From NCBI RefSeq assembly GCF_011764485.1, contig NZ_AP022848.1, forward strand, positions 400,001-464,000: 64,000 nucleotides of DNA, read 5' to 3'. Below, piece by piece: positions 5,059 to 34,322 of this stretch. This DNA comes from Bosea sp. ANAM02. Lineage in GTDB: Bacteria > Pseudomonadota > Alphaproteobacteria > Rhizobiales > Beijerinckiaceae. Within the stretch, counting starts at the first letter, position 1; each line of letters starts with the position of its first letter. The notes below the pieces were generated by a model. That model was not told the DNA's origin. It worked only from the letters and a program-made list of their open reading frames with translations, and did not search any database. Position numbers and translations under genes: made by a program.

Positions 5059-5988
5059 TCAGCCCCACGGGCCCGGCTGGCGCGGCGCGTTACCCCACGG
5101 GCTGTCGCCCGCCTGCGCCGTGAAGCCCGCGCCGGCATGGTTGCGGCCGATGCCCATCGCGCGCGCCTGATCCATCAGGGCGGCGATGCGATTGCCGGTG
5201 TCGGGGTGAGTCGAGAACAGATTATCCATGCCGCCGCCGGTGAGGGGATTGATGATGAACATGTGCGCCGTAGCAGGCTTGGCCTCGGCTGTCTCGTTGG
5301 GGATGTGCTGGACGCCGGCCGCGATCTTGGCGAGCGCGTCGGCCAGCCAGACCGGATTGCCGCAGATTTCGCCGCCGAGCTTGTCGGCCTCGTATTCGCG
5401 CGAGCGCGAGATCGCCATCTGGATCAGGGCGGCGGCCATCGGCGCGAGGATCGAGAGCAGGATCTGGACGATGAAGTTGGGGCGGTTGTCGCGCGAGCCG
5501 AAGAACATGCCGAAGGTGACGAGCGAGGAGATCGCACCGGCGAAGGTCGCGGTGATCGTCATCGTCAGCGTATCGTGATTCTTGATATGCGCGAGTTCGT
5601 GCGCCATCACGCCGGCCAGTTCCTCATAGGTCAGCGTGCGCAGGATGCCGGTCGTCGCCGCGACCGCCGCGTTCTCAGGGTTGCGGCCGGTGGCGAAGGC
5701 ATTGGGCTGGTCCTCGTGGATCAGGTAGACGCGCGGCATCGGCATGTTCGCGCGGGCCGCCAGGTCACGCACCATGCCGTAGAGCTCGGGCGCGCTGCGC
5801 TCATCGACCTCCTGGGCGTTCTGGGCGGCCAGCGCCAGCCGGTCGGAATTCCAGTAGCTGAAGAGATTGGTCACAGCGGCGAAGCCGAGCGCCATCAGCA
5901 TGCCGCCCCCGCCGCCGAGCAGATAGCCGACCGCGCCGAACAGCGCCGTCAGGCCTGCCATCAATAGGCCGGTGCGAACGTAGTTCAT
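5059..5988 (-). CDS. htpX: Membrane zinc metalloprotease HtpX
   Basis: HtpX is an inner-membrane M48-family protease that helps degrade misfolded membrane proteins. The 309-aa product shows two N-terminal membrane segments (residues 6-45), the zinc-binding HELAH motif at 130-134 inside [15 protein letters not shown], two more hydrophobic segments around residues 145-200, and the downstream Glu zinc ligand in [11 protein letters not shown] purine-rich AAGGGG precedes the ATG by about 7 bases. The C-terminus carries a Gly/Pro-rich tail. It is the first gene of the minus-strand run that continues with rsmB, and it diverges from the DUF1674 gene across a 116-base gap. Confidence 0.96.
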
Positions 5989-6104
5989 CGAAACCCCTTC
6001 TCAAGCGCGTGTTGGCGCAGGCCCTCGCATCCGCGAGCATCGTGCCCTATGTGGTGAGGGCCATCCCGATCCTGCAAGAGAATCCTGCAAGGAAACGCGC
6101 CGAC

Positions 6105-6329
6105 ATGCCCGAGAAGACCGATCAGGACAGGCCAGCGGAAGCCCCTCCCGAGGCCGGGGTTCTGTCTCCCGCCGCGCAGCGTGCGCTGGCGGAAGCGGCG
6201 GCGCGCCGCGCCGCGATCGATGCCCATGCCGCCGAGGTCGCGAAGCAGCGCGAGGTCAACGGGCGCGGCGGGCTGGAGCCGGTGCGCTACGACGACTGGG
6301 AAGTGAAGGGCATAGCCAGCGACTTCTGA
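6105..6329 (+). CDS. DUF1674 protein, SdhAF4/Sdh8-like succinate dehydrogenase assembly factor
   Basis: The 74-aa protein ends in GLEPVRYDDWEVKGIASDF, the conserved C-terminal block of DUF1674 (PF07896), the family of the mitochondrial succinate dehydrogenase assembly factor 4. That factor binds flavinylated SdhA and promotes its assembly with SdhB. The middle is an Ala/Arg-rich probable helix. The ATG at 6105 is preferred over upstream starts because an AAGGAAA sequence precedes it and because family members begin close to this point. The sdhCDAB operon lies 15 kb away in the same window. The assembly role is inferred from family membership and not visible directly. Confidence 0.85.
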   Translation: MPEKTDQDRPAEAPPEAGVLSPAAQRALAEAAARRAAIDAHAAEVAKQREVNGRGGLEPVRYDDWEVKGIASDF

Positions 6330-6405
6330 GACGCTTGGCTCTCCGAAACATTGCCAATTGGCGGCCCAGCCTCCAAACAGCAGCCAGTTAGCAGCGGATT
6401 TCTCC

Positions 6406-7710
6406 ATGAACAGCAACGACAAGCGCCTCGCGGCCCTACGCCGCCTTCTTGCCGAGGCGCATGAGAAGCTCGGCCTGAAGCTTGGCTTCCGGCTGTGGGA
6501 CGGCAGTATGGTCCCTGCCTCCTGGCCGCAGGACGGGCTCGCCATCACCATCGCCGATGCCGGGGTGATGGCGGCGCTGATCCGCAAGCCGAAGCTCGAC
6601 ACGCTGCTCAACCTGCATGTCGCCGACCGCATCGCGATCGTGAATGGCTCGATCTTCGATCTCGCCGCTGCGCGTCCGGAAGGCAAGGTCGGCAAGCTCG
6701 CGCGCAACATCCCGAAGAGCGCCGTCTTCGACGTCGTCAGGCGCTTCCTGTTCGCGCCCGGCACGGCCGAGGCCGCCGTCAGCCATCGCAAGGGCGACGA
6801 GATCGCACGCGACGGCGCGCCGGCCACCAACAAGGCCAATATCGCCTATCATTACGACGTCTCGAACGATTTCTACCGGCTCTTCCTCGACGAGGAGATG
6901 GTCTATACCTGCGCCTATTTCACCGAGGATCACGGCGATCTCGAACGGGCCCAGCGCGACAAGCTCGACATGATCTGCCGGAAGCTGCGCCTGCAGCCGG
7001 GCGACCGCTTCCTCGATATCGGCTGCGGCTGGGGCGCGCTGGTCTGCCACGCCGCCCGCTATTACGGCGTCGAGGCGCATGGCGTGACGCTGGCCGAGGA
7101 GCAGCTCGCCTTGGCGCGCGAGAAGGTCGAGAGGCTCGGGCTTCAGGGCAAGGTCACGCTCCATCTCAAGGATTTCACGCAGATGGAAGGGGAGTTCGAC
7201 AAGATCTCCTCGATCGGCATGTTCGAGCATGTCGGCATCCGCAACCATCCCGCCTATTTCCAGGCGGTGAACCGGCTGCTCAGGCCGCGCGGGGTCTATC
7301 TACATCACTGCATCTCGCGCCGCGCCAAGAAGACCGAGAAGGCCTTCAACAAGATGCCCGCCGAATATCGCGCGCTGGTGCGCTACATCTTCCCGGGCGG
7401 CGAGCTCGACCATTTGGGCATGTCGATCGCCAATCTCGAGCGCCACGGCTTCGAGGTGCATGATGTCGAGGGCTGGCGCGAGCACTACCAGCGCACGACA
7501 CGCCTGTGGTGGGAACGGCTCGAGGCCAACAAGGAAAAGGCGGGGGCCGAGATCGGGCCGGAGCGCACGCGGATGTGGCTGCTTTATCTGGCGGGCTGCT
7601 CGCTCGCCTTCGAGCGCGGCGGGGCGCTGGTGAACCAGACGCTGGTCTCGAAGCGGCGCAAGGGCACATCCGGCCTGCCGCTGACGCGCGCAGACCTCTA
7701 TAGCGCCTGA
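6406..7710 (+). CDS. cfa: Cyclopropane-fatty-acyl-phospholipid synthase
   Basis: The enzyme transfers a methylene group from S-adenosylmethionine to cis double bonds of membrane phospholipid acyl chains. The 434-aa product has an N-terminal domain of about 130 residues followed by the CFA methyltransferase fold. Visible landmarks are IAYHYDVSNDFYRLFLD, MVYTCAYF, the SAM-binding DIGCGWGAL near residue 204, and SIGMFEHVG. The ATG at 6406 was chosen; a TTG at 6358 would add 16 residues. It ends convergently with the DUF2853 gene, and a GGCCGG/CCGGCC hairpin at about 7738-7758 lies between them. Confidence 0.93.
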   Translation: MNSNDKRLAALRRLLAEAHEKLGLKLGFRLWDGSMVPASWPQDGLAITIADAGVMAALIRKPKLDTLLNLHVADRIAIVNGSIFDLAAARPEGKVGKLARNIPKSAVFDVVRRFLFAPGTAEAAVSHRKGDEIARDGAPATNKANIAYHYDVSNDFYRLFLDEEMVYTCAYFTEDHGDLERAQRDKLDMICRKLRLQPGDRFLDIGCGWGALVCHAARYYGVEAHGVTLAEEQLALAREKVERLGLQGKVTLHLKDFTQMEGEFDKISSIGMFEHVGIRNHPAYFQAVNRLLRPRGVYLHHCISRRAKKTEKAFNKMPAEYRALVRYIFPGGELDHLGMSIANLERHGFEVHDVEGWREHYQRTTRLWWERLEANKEKAGAEIGPERTRMWLLYLAGCSLAFERGGALVNQTLVSKRRKGTSGLPLTRADLYSA

Positions 7711-7800
7711 GAAAATTGCGCGCCTGGACGGGATCATGGCCGGTTTGCCGCCGGCCTCCCGTCTCGGGGAAGTCGCCCGGCGGAACGCCGGGTCGAGGCG

Positions 7801-8118
7801 TTACTTCTTGACGAAGAGGTCGAGCTTTCCGTGATGCTCGGCCAACAGATAGTAGAAGGTCAGGCGGGACTTGGTCTTGTCGGCCTTCATATGCTCGCAG
7901 ATCGCCTTGACGGAGCCGTCGAGATCGCCGGATTTCAGGCCGAGCTTCTTCTTCAGGAAGTTTTCGCGAACGCGATCGAGTTCGGCCGGGTCCGAGCAGG
8001 CGACGTAGCGGGTGTCGGGTTTGCTCATCACAAGCGCGTAGGATTTCGACATGCCGGCAAAGGCCGCTTCGTTGAGCGGCTTCTTGGCGAACTTCTTCAC
8101 GTCGGCAAGATGATCCAT
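7801..8118 (-). CDS. DUF2853-family small protein
   Basis: The 105-aa protein matches the pattern I recall for DUF2853 (PF11015): an opening helix (DHLADVKKFAKK), then CSDPAELDRVRENFLKKKLGL, and a C-terminal EHMKADKTKSRLTFYYLLAEHHGKLDLF. It is small, Lys-rich and probably cytosolic; no biochemical function is known to me. The ATG at 8118 is preceded by a good AGGAAGGGG ribosome-binding site about 7 bases upstream, so the 9-residue longer frame starting at 8145 is rejected. It is transcribed convergently with cfa. Confidence 0.85.
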   Translation of the reverse strand: MDHLADVKKFAKKPLNEAAFAGMSKSYALVMSKPDTRYVACSDPAELDRVRENFLKKKLGLKSGDLDGSVKAICEHMKADKTKSRLTFYYLLAEHHGKLDLFVKK

Positions 8119-8358
8119 CGGGTAGCCCCTTCCTGACCCGCACAAGCGTACGGGTGGTTACGTGTCGCGGAGGGAGGTTAACGCGGTTCTTCACGGTGGG
8201 CGAGAGGGCAAAACAGGCGATTTCCGGATTTTGGAACCGCTTGGCCCAATCTTTGGTCGAAGGCCGGAATGCGCGGCGGGGATGACGGGGCCGACGCCAA
8301 CATGGGTTGAGCAAAGCCCGGCGTGGTGCTGCGATGCAGCATCTCCCGGAGCACGATG

Positions 8359-9306
8359 ATGAAGCCGACGATCCTGATGATTCCGCGTCTCGCCGATGAT
8401 GCGATCGCAAGCCTGAAGCAAAGCTACACGGTGATCGGGCCGGTCGAGGGTGGCGATGCGGCAAATATCCCGCCCGAAGCGCGCGAAGCCCGCGCGCTGG
8501 TGACGTATGGCGGGCTCCGGACCGATGTCGAGCTGATGGCCGCCTTGCCGAAGCTCGAATTGATCGCGTGCTATGGCACGGGCGTAGAGGGGGTCGACGC
8601 TGCGGCCGCCAAGGCGCGTGGCATCAAGCTCTGCAATGCTGCCGATGCCAATGCCCGCAGCGTCGCCGAATTCGCGGTCGGCCTGATGCTTTGCTGCATG
8701 CGCGGGATCGGACGAGGCGATCGCTTCGTCCGGGATGGTCTCTGGAACCGCCGGGGCATCGAGCCGGTCGCCAATACGCCGGATCTGGCCGGGCGGAAGA
8801 TCGGCATCTACGGGCTCGGCGCCATCGGCAGCAAGATCGCGAGCCGTGCGGCTGCCTTCGAGATGGATGTCGGCTATCACAGCCGCACGCCCAAGCCCGA
8901 TCTGCCCTACCAGTTCCATGACAGCCTGCTCGGCCTTGCCGGATGGGCCGACGTGCTCATGGTCGCGGTCCGGGCCAGCGCCGAGACGCGCCACGCCGTC
9001 GACGATGCTGTGCTGAATGCGCTCGGGCCGGAGGGCTATGTCGTGAATATCTCGCGCGGTCTCGTCATCGACGAGGATGCGCTCTGCGATGCCCTCGAAC
9101 AGAAGCGCATCGGTGGAGCTGCGCTGGACGTCTTCGCGGCCGAGCCGCATGTGCCGGAGCGCTTGCGCAAGCTCGACAATGTCGTGCTGACGCCGCATAT
9201 CGCCGCGAGCTCGCAGGACGCCAAGAAGGCCCAATTGCGGACGCTCCTCGGCAATCTCGAAGCCTTCTTCGCGGGCCGGCCCATGCCGGCGGGCGTGCCG
9301 CTCTAG
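8359..9306 (+). CDS. D-isomer-specific 2-hydroxyacid dehydrogenase (glyoxylate/hydroxypyruvate reductase-like)
   Basis: This is an NAD(P)H-dependent reductase of 2-oxo acids. The 315-aa product shows the split catalytic domain (YGGLRTDVELMAALP, then ACYGTGVEGVD), the Rossmann dinucleotide motif GIYGLGAIGSKIA near residue 150, the catalytic Arg in VNISRGLVIDEDAL, Glu in LDVFAAEPHVP and His in LTPHIAASS. Adjacent ATGs occur at 8356 and 8359, and GGAG at 8348-8351 is better spaced for 8359. Hydroxypyruvate or glyoxylate is the probable substrate by family resemblance, but the sequence does not fix it. Confidence 0.9.
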   Translation: MKPTILMIPRLADDAIASLKQSYTVIGPVEGGDAANIPPEAREARALVTYGGLRTDVELMAALPKLELIACYGTGVEGVDAAAAKARGIKLCNAADANARSVAEFAVGLMLCCMRGIGRGDRFVRDGLWNRRGIEPVANTPDLAGRKIGIYGLGAIGSKIASRAAAFEMDVGYHSRTPKPDLPYQFHDSLLGLAGWADVLMVAVRASAETRHAVDDAVLNALGPEGYVVNISRGLVIDEDALCDALEQKRIGGAALDVFAAEPHVPERLRKLDNVVLTPHIAASSQDAKKAQLRTLLGNLEAFFAGRPMPAGVPL

Positions 9307-9318
9307 GTTTTTCTCAAC

Positions 9319-9362
9319 GCATTTTCTTTACGCGAACCGGCGTCCGCTTCGCTCGAAAATGC
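9319..9362. repeat. GCATTTTC...GAAAATGC intergenic hairpin repeat
   Basis: An inverted repeat with 8-base arms, GCATTTTC at 9319-9326 and GAAAATGC at 9355-9362, encloses ACGCGAACCGGCGTCCGCTTCG-type sequence. I recall very similar units (AACGCATTTTCTTTACGCG...) scattered through Bradyrhizobiaceae and Bosea genomes. It lies between two convergent genes and may also act as a bidirectional terminator, but no T-tract follows. Confidence 0.6.
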
Positions 9363-9371
9363 TCTGACGCT

Positions 9372-9881
9372 TCAGGGCAGGACGACGACCGGCGTGCCCA
9401 TCCGGACGCGGGCGTAGAGGTCGATCACGTCCTGGTTGTGCATGCGGAAGCAGCCATAGGAAGCGGCGGTGCCGATGGTGTTCGGCATGTTGGTGCCGTG
9501 AATGGCGTATTGCCCGGTCGGCCCGAGCCCGATGACGCGCGCGCCCATCGGGTTGCGGGGCGAGCCGCCGGGGATGACGTCGGGCAGGCGGGGGTTGTCG
9601 CGCCTGACCTCGGCCGGAGGGCTCCAGGCCGGATCGACCTGCAATTCCTCGACATATTTGACCCCGCGCCACTGCTTGCCGGCCTTGCCGACGGCGATCG
9701 TGTAGCGGATCGCCTCGCCGGGCGCGGTGACGAAATAGAGCCTCCGCTCGCCGGTGCGGATCACGATGGTGCCGGGGTCGAAGCGCCCGTCGCGCATGCC
9801 GACGATCTCTCGCGCCTGTGCCGGTAGCGCGGTAGCGATGGTCGTCAGGGCGAGGGTGGCAAGGGCGACATGTCTGAGCAT
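9372..9881 (-). CDS. Periplasmic L,D-transpeptidase (YkuD domain)
   Basis: L,D-transpeptidases form 3-3 peptidoglycan cross-links or attach proteins to the wall. The 169-aa protein has a Sec signal peptide (hydrophobic residues 5-19, cleavage after AQA near 23), then a YkuD domain with His128 in YAIHGTN and the catalytic Cys144 in SYGCFRMHN. The usual SHGC is SYGC here, a variant tolerated in alphaproteobacterial members. The protein is short and lacks LysM or other wall-binding domains, so it is a minimal catalytic form. The start ATG is followed directly by the signal peptide. A 17-base inverted repeat sits 80 bases upstream. Confidence 0.92.
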   Translation of the reverse strand: MLRHVALATLALTTIATALPAQAREIVGMRDGRFDPGTIVIRTGERRLYFVTAPGEAIRYTIAVGKAGKQWRGVKYVEELQVDPAWSPPAEVRRDNPRLPDVIPGGSPRNPMGARVIGLGPTGQYAIHGTNMPNTIGTAASYGCFRMHNQDVIDLYARVRMGTPVVVLP

Positions 9882-9961
9882 CGTCGGAACTCCCGCTGGA
9901 AATTGGCGGGAGTTGTCGCGCCGCAGCCGTGAAGCGCGGGTTGAACGATATGGTGAAGCGA

Positions 9962-9978
9962 CGATTCAGGATGAATCG
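9962..9978. promoter_or_regulatory. Inverted repeat CGATTCA-GGA-TGAATCG upstream of the L,D-transpeptidase gene
   Basis: A perfect 7-base-arm palindrome with a 3-base spacer lies about 80 bases upstream of the transpeptidase start. Each arm contains a GANTC site (GATTC and GAATC), the recognition sequence of the cell-cycle methylase CcrM in alphaproteobacteria. It may be an operator or simply a chance hairpin. Confidence 0.35.
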
Positions 9979-10040
9979 CCGGTGAACTCCACTCTCTATG
10001 AATATTTGGCGCCCGGATCGCCGCAGTTTTTTGACAACGC

Positions 10041-10090
10041 CCTTTGTCATTCCGGGTTCGCGCCTATGGCGCGCCCCGGAATGACAAGGG
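10041..10090. repeat. Short GTCATTCCGG palindromic intergenic element
   Basis: TTGTCATTCCGGG and its complement CCCGGAATGACAA face each other around GCGCC-rich loop sequence, making a 50-base near-perfect palindrome. It sits just past the hmuV stop and is the shortest member of the repeat family seen elsewhere in the window (20069, 37561, 38773, 42027, 54153, 56538, 60203). It could serve as a transcript 3-prime end hairpin for hmuTUV. Confidence 0.8.
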
Positions 10091-10101
10091 GCAACCGAGC
10101 C

Positions 10102-10926
10102 TTACGCCGCCGGCCGGGCGCGGTGCTGCTGCGGCAGCAGGAAGGGCAGGCCGGGCGCGGGGGCGCGGCTCAGCGTCAGGTCGACCTTGAAGACCTGGCG
10201 CAGCAGGGCGTCGTCCAGCGTCTTCGCCGGCGGGCCCTGCGCGATGATGTGGCCCTGATCCATCACGACGAGATGGTCGGCATATGTCACGGCGAGATTG
10301 AGATCGTGCAGCACGATCAGCACCGCGACGCCGCGCGCGGCGATGCTGCGGGCCATGTCGAGCAGGGCGAGCTGGTGACAGAGGTCGAGGCTGGCGATCG
10401 GCTCGTCGAGGAAGAGCACCTGCCGCTCGGCGATGCTGCGGCCGGCCTCGAGCTGGCAGAGCACGCGGGCGAACTGGACGCGCTGCTGCTCGCCGCCGGA
10501 AAGGGTCTGGTAGCGCCGGCCGGCGAGATCGATGACACCGGCCGCGGCGAGGCTTTCGGCGACGATGGCTTCGCGCCGCTGGCGGGTCAGCGCCCGGCCG
10601 ATGCCGTCGACGCCGAGGCTCGCGACCTCGTAGACGCTGAACGGGAAGACGAGGCGGGCATGCTGCGCCATGACCGCGCGCACGCAGGCCAGGCGCCAGG
10701 CCGGGATGGCGGCGAGCGGCTCGCCGGCGATGCGGACCTCGCCGCCGGCCGGCCTGATCTCGCCGGTCAGGAGCTTGAGCAGGGTCGATTTGCCGGCGCC
10801 GTTGGGGCCGATCAGAATCGTCGTCGTGCCGCCGGCGAGTTGCAGGTCGGCATCGGCGACGAGCTTGCGCCCGCCCGCGAGGAAGCTGACGCCATGGCCG
10901 GAGAGGATCGGGTTCGCGTCAGACAT
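10102..10926 (-). CDS. hmuV: Heme ABC transporter ATP-binding protein
   Basis: This is the cytoplasmic ATPase of a heme importer. The 274-aa product has Walker A GPNGAGKST at 40-48, the signature LSGGEQQR at 142-149, Walker B LFLDEP at 171-176 and the H-loop His in VLHDLNLAV. The start overlaps the end of hmuU by 8 bases (ATGTCTGA), indicating translational coupling. Assignment to heme rather than siderophore or vitamin B12 rests on the linked hmuT-like binding protein and on the divergent heme oxygenase and hutX genes. Confidence 0.92.
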   Translation of the reverse strand: MSDANPILSGHGVSFLAGGRKLVADADLQLAGGTTTILIGPNGAGKSTLLKLLTGEIRPAGGEVRIAGEPLAAIPAWRLACVRAVMAQHARLVFPFSVYEVASLGVDGIGRALTRQRREAIVAESLAAAGVIDLAGRRYQTLSGGEQQRVQFARVLCQLEAGRSIAERQVLFLDEPIASLDLCHQLALLDMARSIAARGVAVLIVLHDLNLAVTYADHLVVMDQGHIIAQGPPAKTLDDALLRQVFKVDLTLSRAPAPGLPFLLPQQHRARPAA

Positions 10927-12025: not shown

Positions 12026-12981
12026 GGGGCGGCAGCGGTCTTGAGCGGCGGGATCGCGGCTTCCGGATAGATCGCGGCCATCAGGTCGCGCGCCGCCATC
12101 GGCGTGCGCGGGCCGAAGCCGAGCAGATAGAGCCCGTCCATATGGACCAGCCGTTTGTTGCCGGCGGCCGGAACCTGGGAGAAGGCGGGCATCGCGAAAA
12201 GCTCGTCCGGTGTGACGTTGTGGGCGCTGCTGTTGCGCATCATCAGCACCATGTCGGGCGCCGCGGCGGCGATCGCCTCGTCGGTCATCGGCTTGTAGCC
12301 TTCGATGGCGTCGGCGACATTGATGCCGCCAGCCAGCGCGATGATGCCGTCGGCCGAGCTGTTGCGCCCGCCGACCAGAGCGCGGCCGTTCTGCAGCGAG
12401 AGCAGGAAGAGGATGCGCTTCTTCTTCGCGATGCCGGAGCGCAGCGTCGCGAGCTCGTCGAAGCCGGCCTTGGTCTGGGCGGCCAGCCGCTCGGCCGGGG
12501 CGCCTGCGCCGATCGCGGCACCGATGGCTGCGATCTTGGCGGTGACGCCGTCCGGCGACAGCCCGTCAGCGATGCGGGCGATCTTCACGCCGGATTCGAT
12601 GAGCAGCGACACCGCATCCGGCGGGCCGGCGCCGTCGATCAGCATGATCATCGTGGGCTTCAGCGATAGCACGCCCTCGGCCGATAGCGCCCGGACATAG
12701 CCGACATTGGCCTTCTGCTTCAGCGCCTCGGGCGGGAACTGGCTGGTCGAGTCGATGCCGACGATGCGGTCCTGCAGGCCGAGCGCATAGATCACTTCGG
12801 TGATGACGCCGCCGGCGATGACGATGCGGTCCGGCGTCTGGGCGAGTGCCGCCCCCGGCAGGGCGGGGGAGAGGGCGAGTCCACCGAGGCCGAGCGCGCT
12901 CAGGCCAAGGGCTGCCGTCAATTCGCGGCGGTTAGGCTGCCGAAAGCCGCGATGCGCTGTGATGAGGCGCGAGCCGGACAT
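12022..12981 (-). CDS. hmuT: Periplasmic heme-binding protein of the heme ABC importer
   Basis: The 319-aa protein has an N-terminal export signal with a twin-arginine-like NRRELTAALGLSALGLGG segment and cleavage after ALAQ near residue 48, followed by a class III helical-backbone binding protein domain. The domain opens with RIVIAGGVITEVIYALGLQDRIVGIDSTSQFP, a pattern shared by HmuT proteins, and the core has ALSAEGVLSLKPTMIML. It is the first gene of hmuTUV and transcribes away from the heme oxygenase gene across a long AT-rich region. The Tat call is tentative because the motif lacks the usual Phe-Leu-Lys. Confidence 0.92.
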   Translation of the reverse strand: MSGSRLITAHRGFRQPNRRELTAALGLSALGLGGLALSPALPGAALAQTPDRIVIAGGVITEVIYALGLQDRIVGIDSTSQFPPEALKQKANVGYVRALSAEGVLSLKPTMIMLIDGAGPPDAVSLLIESGVKIARIADGLSPDGVTAKIAAIGAAIGAGAPAERLAAQTKAGFDELATLRSGIAKKKRILFLLSLQNGRALVGGRNSSADGIIALAGGINVADAIEGYKPMTDEAIAAAAPDMVLMMRNSSAHNVTPDELFAMPAFSQVPAAGNKRLVHMDGLYLLGFGPRTPMAARDLMAAIYPEAAIPPLKTAAAP

Positions 12982-13327
12982 GTCGCAACTCCATTGGGGG
13001 CAGACGGCGGCTTTGCCGGCCTAGGCCCAGACAAGAAGGTTGTGGTCAGTTTAAAATGATTCAATACAAAGCAAACTCTGTTTTTAATTATTAAAAACAA
13101 GATTTACTTTGCAGTATTATTGACGCTGATATGAGCCTTTACTACAAGGGGTCAAGGGCAACGCCGCTGCGCAGCCGGTCTCGTCGGGCGATATCCGTCG
13201 AGCGGTCCGCCTTCGGGCCTTGCGCATGTCCGGATCGGCGCCGCCTTCTAGGGAGCCTGACCGGATGGCTTTTGCCCGGTTTCGTTCGGTTTCCGCCGTT
13301 TCGGCGCGTCAGATGCAGGGTTTGCCG
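12982..13327. promoter_or_regulatory. Divergent heme-locus control region with two candidate iron-responsive operators
   Basis: This 346-base gap between hmuT and the heme oxygenase gene has no supported gene. Bases 13045-13130 are strikingly AT-rich against the surrounding GC-rich DNA. At 13050-13066 the sequence TTTAAAA-TGA-TTCAATA matches 11 of 14 fixed positions of the Irr ICE box as I recall it (TTTAGAA-N3-TTCTAAA). At 13079-13099 there is a perfect palindrome, TGTTTTTAA-TTA-TTAAAAACA, with 9-base arms. Both are well placed to control transcription in each direction. Iron control of heme uptake is expected from other Rhizobiales; binding by a specific regulator is inference. Confidence 0.6.
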
Positions 13328-13675
13328 ATGTTCATCGCTATGAATCGCTTCAAGGTCGTCAAGGGCGAGGAAGCCGCCTTCGAAACGGTCTGGTCCTCGC
13401 GCAAGAGCCGGCTCGACGAGATGCCGGGCTTCCTCTCCTTCCACCTGCTGAAGGGACCGGAAAAAGAGGACCACACCCTCTATTCCTCGCATACGAGCTG
13501 GGCCTCGAAGGAAGATTTCACGGCCTGGACCAAGTCCGAGCAGTTCCGCGAGTCGCATCGCAATGCCGGCCAGCCGCGTCCGAAGCCGATCTATCTCGGC
13601 CATCCCGAGTTCGAGGGTTTCGAGACCGTCCTGAGCGAGAGCAACCCGCACCTGCCCCGTCAGGCGGCCGAGTGA
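13328..13675 (+). CDS. IsdG/HmuQ-type heme-degrading monooxygenase
   Basis: The 115-aa ABM-domain protein starts MFIAMNRFKVVKG and carries Asn6, Trp67 (FTAWTKS) and His77 (RESHRNA), which match the Asn-Trp-His catalytic triad of IsdG-type heme oxygenases almost position for position. It would open the heme ring in the cytosol to release iron. The frame is open upstream to 13220, but the ATG at 13328 gives the family start. It lies 10 bases before hutX and diverges from hmuTUV, so import and breakdown are encoded back to back. HmuQ of Bradyrhizobium is the closest relative I can recall. Confidence 0.9.
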   Translation: MFIAMNRFKVVKGEEAAFETVWSSRKSRLDEMPGFLSFHLLKGPEKEDHTLYSSHTSWASKEDFTAWTKSEQFRESHRNAGQPRPKPIYLGHPEFEGFETVLSESNPHLPRQAAE

Positions 13676-28097: not shown

Positions 28098-29282
28098 ATG
28101 CCTCTTCGCTCGATCGTTTCACTGAAGGCGATGGTTGCGCTGGCCCTGCTGGCCGCGCCGCTGCCGCTGCAGGCCCAGACCGCCGCTCCGGCAGCGCCTG
28201 CTGCGGCTGCCGGACCCTCCGTGACGGTAACGCAGGCGCAGACCACCGAGATCGTCCAGAGCGTGGTCGTTTCCGGTTCGATCGTCGCTCGCGACGAGAT
28301 CCTGGTCGCGCCGGAAGTCGATGGGCTCGCGATCGTCGAATTGCTGGCGCAGGAAGGCGACAAGGTCGCGAAAGGCCAGGTTCTCGCCCGGCTGAACCGG
28401 ACGACGCTCGACGTCCAGAAAGCGCAGAACGACGCCCAGATCGCGCGCGCCGAGGCGTTGATCGCCCAGGCCAAGGCCCAGATCGCCGAGGCCGATGCCA
28501 ATCTCGTCCAGGCCAACAATGCCTTCGACCGTACCAAGGCGCTGCGCGAGAGCGGTAATACCAGCGTCGAGACATTCGACCAGCGCGCCGCGGCAGCGCG
28601 CTCCGGGCAAGCGCGCGCCAACTCGGCTCGCCAGGCCCTCGAGATCGCCAATGCCGATCTCGCCCTTGCGCGGGCGCAGGGCAGGGACATCGCCGTGAAG
28701 CTGGCGCGCACCGAGATCAAGGCGCCGCGCGCCGGCATCGTCAGCCGGCGCACGGCGCGGCTCGGTGCGATGGCGAGCATGCTGCCGCAGACCGATCCGC
28801 TGTTCCGGATCATCGCCGACGGCGAGGTCGAGCTGGAGGCGCAGGTCGCCGAGGTCGAGTTGCCCAAGCTCAAGCTCGGACAGCCCGTCGCGGTGACCCC
28901 TGCGGGGGCGAACGAGGCACTGGCGGGCACGATCCGCCTGATCTCCCCCGAGGTCGACAAGGCCTCGCGGCTCGGCCGCGTGCTCGTTGCGCTCGACGGC
29001 AACCCGCCGGTCGCGATCGGCTCCTTCGCGCGCGGCATCATCGCGACCGGCCGCAAGCGCGCCGTCACCCTGCCGCTTTCTGCCATCACCTACAGCCGCG
29101 CCGGCGCGACCGTCCAGTCGGTGAAGGACGGCAGGGTCACGACCAAGCCGGTGACTCTCGGGCTGGTCGGCGACGGCCGCGCCGAGATCGCGAGCGGCAT
29201 CACTGACGGCGAGACGGTCGTGGCGCGCGCCGGCACCTTCGTGCGCGACGGCGACATCGTCACGCCGGTCGAGACGAACTGA
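28098..29282 (+). CDS. RND efflux periplasmic adaptor (membrane fusion protein)
   Basis: The 394-aa protein has a Sec signal peptide (VSLKAMVALALLAAPLPLQAQ, cleavage near residue 24), an Ala/Pro-rich linker, a lipoyl/barrel-sandwich domain (DEILVAPEVDGLAIVELLAQEGDKVAKGQVLARLN), a long alpha-helical hairpin rich in Ala and Gln (residues 95-195) and beta-barrel domains. The start at 28098 follows AGGATCC and gives the signal peptide. A GTG at 28029 overlapping the tetR stop is possible but adds a hydrophilic leader. It links the inner-membrane RND pump to an outer-membrane channel that is not encoded here. Confidence 0.92.
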   Translation: MPLRSIVSLKAMVALALLAAPLPLQAQTAAPAAPAAAAGPSVTVTQAQTTEIVQSVVVSGSIVARDEILVAPEVDGLAIVELLAQEGDKVAKGQVLARLNRTTLDVQKAQNDAQIARAEALIAQAKAQIAEADANLVQANNAFDRTKALRESGNTSVETFDQRAAAARSGQARANSARQALEIANADLALARAQGRDIAVKLARTEIKAPRAGIVSRRTARLGAMASMLPQTDPLFRIIADGEVELEAQVAEVELPKLKLGQPVAVTPAGANEALAGTIRLISPEVDKASRLGRVLVALDGNPPVAIGSFARGIIATGRKRAVTLPLSAITYSRAGATVQSVKDGRVTTKPVTLGLVGDGRAEIASGITDGETVVARAGTFVRDGDIVTPVETN

Positions 29283-29294
29283 CGGATACCCGCC

Positions 29295-32200
29295 ATGAAC
29301 GTCAATTTCTCCGCCTGGTCGATCCGGAAGCCGGTTCCGGCGATCCTGCTCTTCGTCGTGCTCTGCGTGCTCGGGCTGCTCGCCTTCTCGAAGCTGCCGG
29401 TGACGCGTTTCCCGAATATCGACGTGCCGCTGGTCTCGGTCACCGTGACGCAGTCCGGCGCCGCGCCGGCCGAGCTCGAAAGCCAGGTCAGCAAGCGCGT
29501 CGAGGACACGGTCGCCAACATCACCGGCGTGAAACACGTCACCTCGACGCTGACCGACGGCCAGTCGCTGACGCTGATCGAGTTCCGGCTGGAGACCAAT
29601 ACCGACCGGGCGGTCAACGACGTCAAGGACGCCATCGCCAAGATCCGGGCCGACCTGCCGCGCACGATCGACGAGCCGATCATCCAGCGCATCGATGTCG
29701 AGGGCCAGTCGATCCTGACCTATGGCGCGGCCTCGGCGGGGATGACGCTGGAACAGCTCTCCTGGCATGTCGACGATGTCGTCGCGCGCGAATTGCAGGG
29801 GCTGAAGGGCGTCGGCCGCGTCGAGCGCTATGGCGGCGTCGACCGCGAGATCCGCGTCTCGCTCGATCCCGACCGCCTGCTCGCGCTCGGTATCACCGCC
29901 GGCGAGGTCAATCGCCAGATCCGCGCGACCAATGTCGACCTGGCCGGCGGCCGCGGCGAGGTCGGCGGGCAGGAGCAGGCCATCCGGACGCTCGCCGGCG
30001 CGCGCACCGTCGCGGACCTGGCCGAGACCAAGATCACGCTCTCGGGCGGGCGCGAGGTTCGTCTCAAGGAGCTCGGCCGCGTCGAGGATTCCAATTCCGA
30101 GCCGCGCGCCTTCGGCCGCCTCAACAAGAGCCCTGTCGTCACCTTCGCGGTGTTCCGCTCGAAGGGCTCGAGCGAATTGTCGGTCAAGGATGTCGTGGCG
30201 CAGCGTGTGGCGGAGCTGAACAAGCGCTTCCCCGACATCCGGATCACGCCGATCGACGACGCGGTCGCCTATACCTACGGCAACTACAAGGCGGCGATGG
30301 AGACCTTGCTGGAGGGCGCGGCGCTCGCCGTCATCGTCGTCTTCCTGTTCCTGCGCAACTGGCGGGCGACGCTGATCACGGCGGTCGCGCTGCCGCTTTC
30401 GGCGATTCCCACCTTCTGGGCGATGGAGCTGATGGGCTTCTCGCTCAATCTCGTCAGCCTGCTCGGCATCACGCTGGTGACCGGCATCCTCGTCGACGAC
30501 GCCATCGTCGAGATCGAAAACATCGTCCGGCACATGAAGATGGGCAAATCGCCCTATCGCGCCGCGATGGAAGCCGCCGACGAGATCGGGCTTGCGGTCA
30601 TCGCGATCACGCTGACGATCGTCGCGATCTTCGCGCCTGTCTCCTTCATGGGCGGCGTCGCCGGCCAGTATTTCCGGCAGTTCGGCCTGACGGTGGCGGT
30701 TGCCGTACTGTTCTCGCTGCTCGTCGCGCGCCTGATCACGCCGATGATGGCGGCCTATCTGATGAAGCCGGTGCATCATGCCGATCCCAAGGACGGGTTC
30801 GTGATGGGCGCCTATGTCGGCCTGCTCACGAACACGCTGAAGAAGCGGCGCATCCCGTTCTTCCCGCGCTTCGACGGCACCGGCCGCTGGCGGAGCATGC
30901 CGTTCAACACGGCCTATGCGACGCTGGTCGTCGGCTTCATGTTCCTGGTCGGTTCGATCCAGGCGACGCAGTTGCTGCCGACCGGCTTCATTCCGGACGA
31001 GGACACTTCGCGCGTCGTGGCCAGCGTCGAACTGCCGCCGGGCTCGACGCTTGAGGACACCCGCGTCACCACCGACAAGCTCGTCGACGTGCTGAAGACG
31101 ATCCCAGAGGTGCGCGACGTCTTCGTGCTCGGCGGGGCCTCGCCCACAGGCCAGCGCGAGATTCGGCGCGCCGCTGTCTTCATCCTGCTCAAGCCCAAGG
31201 CCGAGCGCGACATCGCCCAGAAGGAGCTGAAGGTCACCATCGCCGAGAAGCTGGCCAGCGTGCCGGACGTGCGCGCCTGGTATGTCAACGAGCGCGGCGA
31301 GCGCGAGATGGCCTTCTCGATCCTGTCGAAGGATGGCGAGGCGCTCGACGCTGCCGTCGCCAAGATCGAGGCGCGGATGCGCCAGGTCGACGGCTATCTC
31401 AACGTCGCGACGGCGGGCTCGCTGAGCCGACCGGAACTGCGCGTCACGCCGAAGCTGGAGGAGGCCGCCAATCTCGGCGTCACGCCGGAGGCGATCTCCG
31501 AGGCCGTGCGCGTCGCCACGATCGGCGATGTCGGGCCGAACCTCGCCAAGTTCAACGCGGGCGACCGGCTGGTACCGATCCGCGTCCAGCTCGACGAGGC
31601 CGCCCGCACCGACATGCGCAATATCGCGGCCCTGCGCGTGACCAATGCGAGCGGCGTCTCGATCCCGCTGACGGCGGTGGCCGAGATCGGCTTCGGCGAG
31701 GGCCCGAGTTCGATCGACCGCTATGACCGCGTCCGCCGTGCCCAGATCGGTGCCGACCTGAAGCGCGGCTTCGAGCTCGGCACCGCGCAGGACAAGTTCC
31801 AGGAGATCGTCAGGGAGGTCGGCCTGCCTGACGGCGTCTGGATCGCCGCGACGGGCGATGCGGAGATCCAGGGCGAGGTGGTCCAGGGCTTCATCACGGC
31901 GATGACGACCGGCCTCATGCTGGTGCTGGCGGTTCTGATCCTGCTGTTCGGCTCGGTCTTCCAGCCGATCACTATCCTGCTCTCGCTGCCGCTCTCCTTC
32001 GGCGGCGTGGTGATCGCGCTGCTTGCGACGAACAACGCCGTCTCGATGCCGGTCTATATCGGCCTGCTCATGTTGATGGGCATCGTCACCAAGAACGCGA
32101 TCATGCTGGTCGATTTCGCGGTGGAGGAGGTCGGGCGCGGCAAGGACCGCTTCACGGCGCTGATCGAGGCCGGCCGCAAGCGGGCACGGCCGATCCTGAT

Positions 32201-32516
32201 GACCACGATCGCGATGGCGGCGGGCATGCTGCCCTCGGCCTATGGCGTTGGCGACGGCGGCGAGTTCCGCGCGCCGATGGCGATTGCGGTGATCGGCGGC
32301 CTGATCGTCTCGACCGTGCTCTCGCTCGTCTTCGTGCCGTCCTTCTACATGGTGATGGACGACCTCTCGCGGGCGACGGGCTGGCTCTTCGGCCGCTTCT
32401 TCGGCAAGGCCGAGGACGAAAGCCAGTGGGAGCCGATCGACGAGCACGCCGCGCCCGCGATCGTGACGGCGGAAGCGATGTCGAAGCCGGCCCCGCCGCG
32501 GCTGGCGGCGGAGTGA
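29295..32516 (+). CDS. RND-family efflux transporter permease subunit
   Basis: The 1073-aa protein has the AcrB-like plan: first helix near residues 13-33, a large periplasmic loop, a block of helices from about 335, a second periplasmic loop, and a final block after about 870. Family landmarks include TRFPNIDVPLVSVTV in the first porter domain and the proton-relay segment GILVDDAIVEIENIVRHMKMG with the paired Asp. It is driven by the proton gradient and works with the adaptor encoded 12 bases upstream. Substrates cannot be read from sequence. No TolC-like channel gene follows, so a shared one is likely. Confidence 0.96.
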   Translation: MNVNFSAWSIRKPVPAILLFVVLCVLGLLAFSKLPVTRFPNIDVPLVSVTVTQSGAAPAELESQVSKRVEDTVANITGVKHVTSTLTDGQSLTLIEFRLETNTDRAVNDVKDAIAKIRADLPRTIDEPIIQRIDVEGQSILTYGAASAGMTLEQLSWHVDDVVARELQGLKGVGRVERYGGVDREIRVSLDPDRLLALGITAGEVNRQIRATNVDLAGGRGEVGGQEQAIRTLAGARTVADLAETKITLSGGREVRLKELGRVEDSNSEPRAFGRLNKSPVVTFAVFRSKGSSELSVKDVVAQRVAELNKRFPDIRITPIDDAVAYTYGNYKAAMETLLEGAALAVIVVFLFLRNWRATLITAVALPLSAIPTFWAMELMGFSLNLVSLLGITLVTGILVDDAIVEIENIVRHMKMGKSPYRAAMEAADEIGLAVIAITLTIVAIFAPVSFMGGVAGQYFRQFGLTVAVAVLFSLLVARLITPMMAAYLMKPVHHADPKDGFVMGAYVGLLTNTLKKRRIPFFPRFDGTGRWRSMPFNTAYATLVVGFMFLVGSIQATQLLPTGFIPDEDTSRVVASVELPPGSTLEDTRVTTDKLVDVLKTIPEVRDVFVLGGASPTGQREIRRAAVFILLKPKAERDIAQKELKVTIAEKLASVPDVRAWYVNERGEREMAFSILSKDGEALDAAVAKIEARMRQVDGYLNVATAGSLSRPELRVTPKLEEAANLGVTPEAISEAVRVATIGDVGPNLAKFNAGDRLVPIRVQLDEAARTDMRNIAALRVTNASGVSIPLTAVAEIGFGEGPSSIDRYDRVRRAQIGADLKRGFELGTAQDKFQEIVREVGLPDGVWIAATGDAEIQGEVVQGFITAMTTGLMLVLAVLILLFGSVFQPITILLSLPLSFGGVVIALLATNNAVSMPVYIGLLMLMGIVTKNAIMLVDFAVEEVGRGKDRFTALIEAGRKRARPILMTTIAMAAGMLPSAYGVGDGGEFRAPMAIAVIGGLIVSTVLSLVFVPSFYMVMDDLSRATGWLFGRFFGKAEDESQWEPIDEHAAPAIVTAEAMSKPAPPRLAAE

Positions 32517-32520
32517 GGCG

Positions 32521-33192
32521 TCAGGGCTGGAGTTCGAGCGGGAAGGGCGTGCGTTCGTAGATGGAGAGGAGGTCGTTCCTAGTCGCGAATTCCTCTTCCC
32601 ATTGGTGGAGAAGCGTAGCCACGGCGGAGCGATCACCGGCTGCGACGAGAGCTCCTAGCCGGCTGGCCCGCTCGAAGCGCGGCTGCCACCAGTTCTTCAT
32701 CGTGAGGTGCCAGTCCTTGATCCGTTCGTAGATGGGGATGGCCTCTTCGAAACGCCCCAGCGCTGCAAGAATATGGATGCGATAGGGCTCATGGTGATTC
32801 AGCCAGCCATCGTATTCATCAGAACGCGGTTCGCCTTCGACGTGGAACATGTCTTCGATTGTCTGGACGCGCCGCAGCATTGGTAGAATGCGCTGGTTGA
32901 ACGTTTCGACGACGGTCTGTGTGAAACCGGGGTCTGACCAGAGCCGCGGCGCGCCCTTGGGGACCCAGAAAATGTCGGGACACAGGCCTTGAAGCGATCC
33001 GGTGGGATTAAAGGCATGACCGATATGCCAATGGAAACGCGGATAGTCGGCATCCCAGCTTCGATCTATAGATATCGAACGAAGTACGTGGCGCAGTGGT
33101 GCTACGATGAGGAAGGTGCCTCTGACGAGCAGGTCGTCATGGCTCGAAGCGACTTCTTCCAGAAGCTTTTTGATCTGCCTCTTCGTCGTCAT
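32521..33192 (-). CDS. Unrecognised 223-aa protein, candidate immunity protein
   Basis: I do not recognise a family. The N-terminus (MTTKRQIKKLLEEVASSHDDLLVRG) is a charged helix, the centre is rich in aromatic residues (FHWHIGHAFNPTG, CPDIFWVPKG), and the C-terminal half has helix pairs reminiscent of TPR-like folds (RIHILAALGRFEEAIPIYERIK). There is no signal peptide or membrane segment. Its ATG overlaps the stop of the upstream toxin-like gene in a TAATG junction, the close coupling expected of a toxin-immunity pair. GC content is lower here than in neighbouring genes. The immunity role is inferred from context only. Confidence 0.55.
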   Translation of the reverse strand: MTTKRQIKKLLEEVASSHDDLLVRGTFLIVAPLRHVLRSISIDRSWDADYPRFHWHIGHAFNPTGSLQGLCPDIFWVPKGAPRLWSDPGFTQTVVETFNQRILPMLRRVQTIEDMFHVEGEPRSDEYDGWLNHHEPYRIHILAALGRFEEAIPIYERIKDWHLTMKNWWQPRFERASRLGALVAAGDRSAVATLLHQWEEEFATRNDLLSIYERTPFPLELQP

Positions 33193-34322
33193 TAATTCGG
33201 CCTCACCTCGATGACGATGATCCGTCGGAGTGTTTCGAATCCAAATCTAGCGGCATTGGCGAGCATATCTGCTCGTCGATCTGTCAAGCCGGCTTTGCCG
33301 GTCTTCAGATCATAGACGCAAAGCGTGCCGTCTCGGCGATATTCATAGGCGTCTGTCCGAATTGATTGCGGATATCCATAGGGAACCGATTCCCTGTATA
33401 CTCCTTCCTCCTGCTCCTTAAGGAGTGAGCGTTCGGCTCGGAAATATGGATCTTTCCGATCTTCAACGTAGTTCTTGAAATAGGAGTGAACGCCCGTTCC
33501 ATAGAGTGTTCTCGACGGATAGAGTTCTGGGGAGCCTGCGGCATTGACTGCCCGACCAGCCAACTCCTGGACCTCCGGCAAACGCCGGCAGGCTAGCTCG
33601 GCCTGCTCCTCCGTTATGCGCCCCGAATAGCTGAGGTCGAACTTGCCGGTCGTGCCGTCTCCCAGCTGATATTCACGGGCGTTGAACCCCATGACGGCCT
33701 GCTGACCGTCGCTGCCGTTGAGTGGTGACATCCAGCCGAACAGGACGGCTCCGCCGGTGACGATGGTCGGCGCGGCGACAAGAGGCGCGAAAGCCGGCTG
33801 TACCGTCGCATCGGGTTCGGGCCCGGACGGTGTCCAGATCGTGCGCCCGACGAGATCGCCGTCGGGGCCGCCGACATAGATCGACTGGACGTTGCCGGTC
33901 GTTTCGAAGCTGGTCTTGCTGCCATCGCGGTCGATGACGGTCTGGCGTTCGTCGAAGCCGGCGGCGCGCGAGGCGGCGTATTCCGACTGGATCGTCGTGC
34001 CCTCGCCGTCCGTGACGGTCTGCTCGAAGATCGAGCCATCCTCGTTCCAGCCCTCGTCAAGTGAAGACCACCCGGTATCGGCACCCAGCAAGCTGCCATC
34101 GGGAGAAAGGGGACCTCCTCCGCCGGGGCCGCCGCCTCCGCCCGCTCCGCTGGTCCATTGCCCGCCATCGGCATTGCCGGAGGGCACGCGCGGCTGGTTC
34201 GGGTTGTATTTGCGGCGCCAATGATCGCGCCGGATCAGGCAAAGCTCGTCGCGCAGCCGTAGCAGGCGAAGCCGGGCGACGCGAAGCTCGCGATCCGCGT
34301 AAGGGGGCTGGAGGATCGGCAT
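33192..34322 (-). CDS. Probable polymorphic toxin with C-terminal restriction-endonuclease-fold nuclease domain
   Basis: The 376-aa protein has three parts. Residues 1-80 hold an Arg-rich helix, NPNQPRVPSGNADGGQWTSG, and a Gly-rich linker (58-70). Residues 80-200 carry Asp-Gly-spaced strands resembling short RHS-like units and a hydrophobic stretch (about 180-198). Residues 275-376 form the toxin tip, with GTGVHSYFKNYVE (His279), Glu near 298-303, SIRTDAYEYRRDGTLCVYDLKTGK with Asp324 and the D-x-K at 338-340, fitting a PD-(D/E)xK nuclease. I recall similar tips in bacterial polymorphic toxins. There is no signal peptide and no secretion gene nearby, so the export route is unknown. The tip-coding DNA has visibly lower GC than the N-terminal part. 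Confidence 0.65.
   Translation of the reverse strand: MPILQPPYADRELRVARLRLLRLRDELCLIRRDHWRRKYNPNQPRVPSGNADGGQWTSGAGGGGGPGGGGPLSPDGSLLGADTGWSSLDEGWNEDGSIFEQTVTDGEGTTIQSEYAASRAAGFDERQTVIDRDGSKTSFETTGNVQSIYVGGPDGDLVGRTIWTPSGPEPDATVQPAFAPLVAAPTIVTGGAVLFGWMSPLNGSDGQQAVMGFNAREYQLGDGTTGKFDLSYSGRITEEQAELACRRLPEVQELAGRAVNAAGSPELYPSRTLYGTGVHSYFKNYVEDRKDPYFRAERSLLKEQEEGVYRESVPYGYPQSIRTDAYEYRRDGTLCVYDLKTGKAGLTDRRADMLANAARFGFETLRRIIVIEVRPN

Follow-up and report, generated by a model that had tools for sequence, protein, structure and literature searches.

A predicted polymorphic nuclease toxin and its immunity partner in Bosea sp. ANAM02, with relatives in phage and gene transfer agent head clusters

The predicted toxin–partner gene pair

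We analysed a 64,000-nucleotide stretch of the Bosea sp. ANAM02 genome (contig NZ_AP022848.1, positions 400,001 to 464,000 of the forward strand; hereafter the window), and within it two overlapping reverse-strand genes which encode a 376-residue protein and a 223-residue partner. An initial annotation, made from the letters of the window alone, proposed that these are a polymorphic toxin and its coupled immunity gene, and the comparison with related loci supports that interpretation. We regard the 376-residue protein as a probable polymorphic toxin with an immunity protein, its activity being predicted, because its C-terminal tip and the partner gene are exchanged at this site in other Bosea, because one such locus carries an apparent insertion scar, and because the motif of its N-terminal domain is joined to other tips elsewhere. 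That the two genes form a toxin–immunity pair is highly probable. The features, all on the reverse strand and in window coordinates, are as follows.

32521–33192, reverse: partner gene, 223 residues, predicted immunity protein, low GC; covaries with the tip
33190–33194, reverse: TAATG stop/start overlap of the two genes, one common base, read from the sequence
33192–34322, reverse: predicted polymorphic toxin gene, intact open reading frame (ORF) of 376 residues, from ORF reading
34215–34298, reverse: N-terminal Leu/Arg-rich helix, residues 9–36, within the shared N-domain (AlphaFold2 model; alignment of 16 N-domain sequences)
34152–34205, reverse: NPNQPRVPSGNADGGQWT motif (PRVPxGN-GGQWT), residues 40–57, common to stand-alone, portal-fused and protease-fused proteins
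33813–34070, reverse: beta-meander, residues 85–170, by likeness to single-layer or YD-repeat-like sheets
33627–33809, reverse: variable junction, residues 172–232, which links the constant N-half to the tip (alignment; low pLDDT at 173–188 and 212–231)
33192–33626, reverse: predicted PD-(D/E)XK nuclease tip, residues 233–376 plus stop, low GC
33486–33488, reverse: H279 of the tip (GTxVH), in 75 of 79 genomic tip matches (4 gaps) and 13 of 14 viral-contig matches (1 gap)
33351–33353, reverse: D324, in 73 of 79 genomic (4 gaps, 1 A, 1 N) and 14 of 14 viral matches
33303–33311, reverse: D338-L-K340; D in 74 of 79 genomic matches (4 gaps, 1 G), K in 75 of 79 (4 gaps), both in 14 of 14 viral matches

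Both ORFs, their lengths and coordinates and the TAATG overlap are as the annotation gave them, as are the NPNQPRVPSGNADGGQWT linker and the residues D324, D338 and K340. The tip has a near-invariant H/E/D/DxK set of the PD-(D/E)XK type and structure comparison matched it to nucleases; we take its catalytic pattern to be of the RecB/Cas4 type. The tip is very probably a RecB/Cas4-like PD-(D/E)XK nuclease, with activity predicted. The Q, P, R, P, G and W columns of the NPNQPRVPSGNADGGQWT motif are invariant across 93 motif proteins, which were picked for carrying it. The 376-residue protein matched no Pfam family up to an E-value of 10, and no export signal or signal peptide was evident by inspection of its sequence.

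Of 7997 scored candidates, 165 are toxin homologues at E ≤ 0.001, and those with names among the 120 listed come mostly from Bosea. One relative, P0101, is a 621-residue frame in which the toxin continues into a partner homologue, possibly through a frameshift or fusion. In a further Bosea genome (G164) there are N-domain matches at C312:19276 and C376:2267 (E 4e-10 and 4e-9), within open frames of 1485 and 1595 residues (loci L279 and L280).

Composition also sets the tip and partner apart. Their combined GC content (32521–33674) is 56.5%, against 67.5% for the whole window, and no stretch of equal length falls below it: a single one of 1257 sliding windows, taken in 50-base steps, is at or below 56.5%. 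The lower GC postulated for the two is therefore borne out, and the count of 27 G/C in 60 bases at 33421–33480 is exact, although positions 34081–34140, put at about 70%, are in fact at 75% (45/60).

The partner protein and its pairing with the tip

The 223-residue partner, described at the outset as unrecognised, retains that status: it has no family above the cut-off in Pfam (sub-threshold TPR matches occur), none in NCBIfam, and a single PHROGs match at an E-value of 0.16. Its structure model is confident (pLDDT 95.2), and Foldseek matched it to nothing in the PDB at E ≤ 0.001. The partner is, then, an unrecognised immunity family in prospect, for which a confident model exists but the search gave no closely related solved structure.

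Relatives in named genomes were examined in the best 80 of 246 confirmed loci. The tip family is present in 72 of these, and 69 of the 72 have the partner family. The partner-less tip loci are L011, L067 and L068, the tip being more distant in the last two. L067 and L068 have an ORF of equal length (297 residues) and the same downstream ORF in metagenome-assembled genomes (MAGs) labelled Rhodospirillales and Rhizobiales, and the binning of one of them may be wrong. At least 17 of the best 80 loci have two or more partner ORFs, a count which omits two loci that look like one gene in pieces. A 4-base overlap joins toxin and partner genes in 47 of the 56 relative loci where the toxin ORF of a simple gene finder precedes a partner ORF.

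Among 67 Bosea genomes, the partner is matched in 34 and the N-domain in 43. In thirty genomes the partner match is strong (E about 1e-20 or better), and in all but one of these (G178) the contig also has an N-domain no more than 3 kb away; the other four partner-positive genomes have weak, partial matches only. Together with the correlation described below (rho 0.73 between tip and partner identities), which points to a cognate relation, this pairing suggests that the partner is the immunity protein.

Exchange of tip and partner at the Bosea site

The Bosea site amounts to an unusually clean natural experiment on exchange in a polymorphic toxin. The pair is flanked on one side by an RND pump gene (29295–32516) and on the other by two genes, one for a regulator of the HxlR type and one of the EamA type. 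Eighteen other Bosea loci, each with at least the RND neighbour and with twice-fetched places dropped, were compared with the window by pairwise identity of the N-half (residues 1–172), the tip (233–376), the partner and the RND protein. The N-half follows the pump closely (rho 0.87, 120 pairs), whereas the tip (0.13, 120 pairs) and the partner (0.14, 171 pairs) do not; these two instead follow each other (0.73, 120 pairs, or 0.76 as a partial correlation with RND removed), the corresponding value for N-half and partner, RND removed, being 0.15. As the locus pairs are not independent, these values are descriptions and not P values. EamA, with 21–28 pairs only, is correlated with all segments (0.76–0.91).

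Individual comparisons illustrate the pattern. In several pairs of loci the flanking pumps are 95–98% identical and the tips and partners 33–45%, for example L007 and L220 (RND 98, N 90, tip 45, partner 39%) or the window and L021 (RND 97, N 83, tip 38, partner 34%). L021 and L216, for their part, have RND proteins of 95%, tips of 83% and partners of 86% identity. The block is at times broken, as between L002 and L003 (tip 91, partner 60%), L002 and L227 (tip 92, partner 57%), and L003 and L004 (tip 67, partner 87%). Behind its present tip and partner, L019 carries a tip remnant of 29 residues (6990–7076) and then a second partner (7088–7753), which is nearer to the partner of the window (50 versus 31%); on sequence grounds, this arrangement is an insertion scar. 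Since the N-half tracks the pump while tip and partner track each other, the tip and partner are, judging by these identities, mostly swapped together as a block behind a constant N-half. Replacement of the tip together with its partner gene, proposed earlier from the GC pattern, is thereby placed on a comparative footing.

Further tips joined to the N-domain or motif

An alignment of 16 N-terminal regions, run against 120 genomes of the order, gave 25 N-domain matches in 14 genomes. The annotation had suggested looking for its N-terminus joined to other tips, and such proteins exist. By reading of these sequences and of the loci in named genomes, the tips include another REase-like one (L067), HNH-like (L078, L084), nucleotidyltransferase-like (L081, L089) and deaminase-like (L097) ones, among others, and HHIVE-type nuclease tips with a small overlapping downstream gene occur at L077, L086, L087 and L103. 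Pfam (E 0.001) found CdiA-CT RNase A (PF18431) in seven of the 93 motif proteins, and the ribonuclease, deaminase, ART, DUF6572 and phage portal families in a single protein each; the remainder had no match at that threshold. The HNH-like C-terminus of one portal fusion is 48–72% identical to RHS-annotated proteins over about 34–58% of the 237-residue query, and the hidden Markov model (HMM) of the window's own tip matches portal-fused proteins (L171, 7e-9; L160, 2e-7). The features of a polymorphic toxin are thus seen together: a constant N-part with varied tips, an adjacent downstream partner, and one toxin domain on different carriers.

Relatives in phage and GTA head clusters

Eleven of the 25 motif matches, from 9 of the 14 genomes and from 6 genera, have a portal gene on the same strand at a distance of 5 kb or less, where about 0.05 would be expected for random placement; one of the eleven is a 55-residue fragment. 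PHROGs assigned portal families to 15 of 19 long motif proteins and a head maturation protease to one (L114), with no match for three. In IMG/VR, the best 80 of 127 related stretches correspond to 76 loci; the tip HMM has 14 matches in 11 of these, some near-duplicates and portal fusions among them, and the partner family is absent from all 76.

Several of the clusters resemble gene transfer agents (GTAs) of the RcGTA type. Portal, protease and capsid genes alone do not tell GTAs from prophages. GTA_TIM (PF13547), which among 14 control genomes matched in Caulobacter only, is present in 12 of the 14 carrier genomes of the order, and lies 11–29 kb from the toxin, on the same contig and strand, in G060, G100, G014 and G017. 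In the best-resolved example (L252/L253, genome G060) the order is portal, protease, toxin (5940–7028), partner (7025–7711), capsid, g6, g12, g13, g14 and g15, in a check of portal, protease, capsid, g6 and g12–g15 homologues; the g-numbers are labels of our own, while the portal, capsid and GTA_TIM calls rest on HMMs. This toxin has the tip and partner family of the window (N 39, tip 36, partner 32%; as at L248). At L254 an HHIVE-type toxin lies between protease and capsid; at L256 one lies between portal and capsid, with a piece of a protease after it. Arrays of the window-type tip and partner stand between the GTA protease and capsid in a Phreatobacter MAG (L042) and in a MAG named PHREA1 (L023), and at L081 (Phyllobacterium bourgognense) a motif toxin directly follows the capsid gene. 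Location inside a GTA cluster thus holds for the relatives at L252, L254, L256, L023, L042 and L081. In genomes from outside the order, a motif ORF stands between genes like g13 and g14 (G194), and portal fusions occur as well (G201, G282).

GTA query genes were matched at least once in 20 of the 76 IMG/VR loci and at least twice in 17. We lean towards an origin of the N-domain in phage or GTA heads, or a docking function there. As to its location, the comparison supports not only replacement of tip and partner and diversity of tips but also, by homology, a place for this class in GTA clusters.

Some further observations concern these contigs. IMG/VR contigs labelled viral with at least two GTA head or tail homologues are L107, L108, L110, L114, L116, L117, L124, L128, L140, L146, L157, L159, L162, L168, L169, L178 and L182, and some such entries may be bacterial GTA clusters. 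L126, L131, L163 and others each have several portal-derived ORFs, of which some combine the motif with different tips, in a manner like orphan-tip arrays. At L243 (G017; 7700–10161) a GTA portal gene with one internal stop stands beside a motif toxin, and the ORF adjoining it is presumably resolvase-like.

Delivery and alternative explanations

The explanation that we prefer, with a probability of roughly 0.55 as a whole, is an exchangeable nuclease toxin with its immunity protein, an N-domain tied to phage or GTA heads, and delivery in particles. The tip would cut DNA inside a target cell, the partner would neutralise it in the producer, and strains would swap the tip–partner cassette behind the constant N-half. 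The helix and PRVPxGN-GGQWT motif would serve as the linker or docking module in a class of toxins associated with phage-type heads; such toxins would travel in phage- or GTA-type particles set free by lysis and would hit neighbours that lack the immunity gene. Nuclease activity, neutralisation, loading and delivery are all predicted steps of this scheme.

Several observations weigh against delivery by a GTA in this case. The Bosea toxin gene, a single copy in the 5.65-Mb genome (C1:434 kb), is separated by about 3.2 Mb of contig from the GTA of the same genome (portal C1:3612044, GTA_TIM C1:3600744), which is without a motif toxin, the genome having one N-domain match only. GTAs are common (92 of 120 genomes) and do not mark carriers (p 0.52); GTA_TIM is found in none of the 10 carriers outside the order in a sample of the class, and G005 and G058 have portal and toxin with no GTA_TIM found. 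The head clusters might also be mere tolerated insertion sites, a view which is disfavoured because in-frame fusions to portal and protease genes exist. Given the distance of 3.2 Mb, particle delivery is a prediction for the Bosea gene and not a result; loading would need to occur in trans, and that a GTA or phage particle delivers the Bosea protein is, taken on its own, doubtful.

One alternative is that the pair is an intracellular toxin–antitoxin or abortive-infection device, never exported, whose toxin is released once the partner is disturbed, either by an incoming phage or by a head protein of a phage or GTA. The stable chromosomal site beside the RND pump in 19 loci and the unseen export signal would suit such a device, and co-location with portal genes could mean sensing rather than loading; diversification of tip and partner, arrays of extra partners and warheads shared with RHS proteins fit conflict between cells, and we consider this alternative rather unlikely.

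The same pair could instead have an N-domain recognised by a type VI secretion system (T6SS) or another dedicated secretion system, the phage and GTA sites being insertion hot spots. No export machinery was seen adjoining the pair, as the annotation stated, but the statement does not extend to the genome, which has GTA genes and a T6SS sheath gene (TssC homologue, C1:2407709). The latter, and the lack of an evident signal peptide by inspection, would speak for T6SS delivery, and other genes are inserted in GTA-type regions, such as a membrane-protein ORF at L254 (15961–16860). However, TssC is found in just 2 of 14 carriers (one of them this genome) and in 17 of the 106 other genomes (p 1.0), a comparison confined to the T6SS through TssC; carriers are not linked to T6SS. 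Hot spots, moreover, leave the in-frame portal and protease fusions unexplained, and this alternative appears improbable. A domesticated nuclease whose role is to trim DNA when GTAs or phages package or recombine it, with the partner as regulator, would suit a RecB/Cas4-like tip in a head cluster, yet is very hard to reconcile with the unrelated tips that motif proteins carry at such sites, in many cases with a different small gene downstream, and with the rapid replacement of tip and partner.

Returning to particle delivery, a broader and tentative proposal is that Hyphomicrobiales GTAs are armed: exchangeable cassettes in the head cluster, beside the portal and head protease genes or fused to them, would let particles deliver toxin as well as DNA while sparing only kin with matching immunity. 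The Bosea protein would be a stand-alone member of the class, which the GTA of its host could load in trans through its N-domain. If so, GTAs would do more than transfer DNA at random: they would discriminate kin, a function open to selection, and the cassettes in GTA clusters make their role as kin-discriminating weapons a direct, testable proposal.

Two further features of the window are recorded here. Its second-lowest GC stretch is at 12901–13600 (0.572–0.575 per 600 bases), and a 1505-residue open frame at 28119–32636 (reverse strand), antisense to RND pump genes, is most likely a by-product of high GC.

Comparison with known systems

The closest described systems are MuF toxins, both the polymorphic ones that temperate phages encode (PMC5576092) and Bxa (PMC11699363), whose genes belong to the head and packaging module and lie beside the portal gene. 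Like the motif toxins they have a downstream immunity gene and varied C-terminal warheads, and capsid targeting has been proposed for them (PMC5576092, PMC11699363). In contrast, the window protein has no recognised MuF domain, the shared part being the helix and PRVPxGN-GGQWT motif; motif proteins are fused to portal or head protease, several of them in GTA clusters, and the Bosea gene does not adjoin phage genes. One PF04233 protein (P0224) has an 11% stretch in common with the portal-fusion query.

Polymorphic toxin systems in general include the REase-fold clades REase-1 to REase-10, and share with the window pair a constant N-part, an exchangeable C-terminal nuclease and adjacent and extra immunity genes (PMC3482391); the window proteins differ in matching no Pfam or NCBIfam family. 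Contact-dependent inhibition (CDI) and Rhs systems have warheads in common with the motif proteins, namely the CdiA-CT RNase A (PF18431) and the HNH-like tip of RHS proteins. The displaced tip and extra immunity gene of L019 parallel those of CDI (CdiA-CT/CdiI) and Rhs systems. The window protein differs in being short and without FHA, TPS or RHS domain matches, and its beta-meander merely resembles YD-type sheets.

L252/L253, L254 and L256 share with RcGTA homologues of portal, protease, capsid, g6 and g12–g15, and have toxin cassettes in addition; such a cassette is not known as part of described GTAs. In a GTA review, effectors and toxins are mentioned as neighbours of the Bartonella GTA (PMC11841831). 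Within open-licence PubMed Central, a scope which makes this weak evidence, seven papers mention both GTAs and polymorphic toxins, and none of them, judged by title and opening of the abstract, describes a link between the two; the string PRVPAG occurred in no paper searched. The class, comprising stand-alone and portal- or protease-fused toxins partly in GTA clusters, was not found in print. The Bosea GTA, unlike those of the GTA-housed relatives, is itself without a motif toxin. The window pair itself very probably belongs among the polymorphic toxins, its predicted immunity protein representing a family that has no name.
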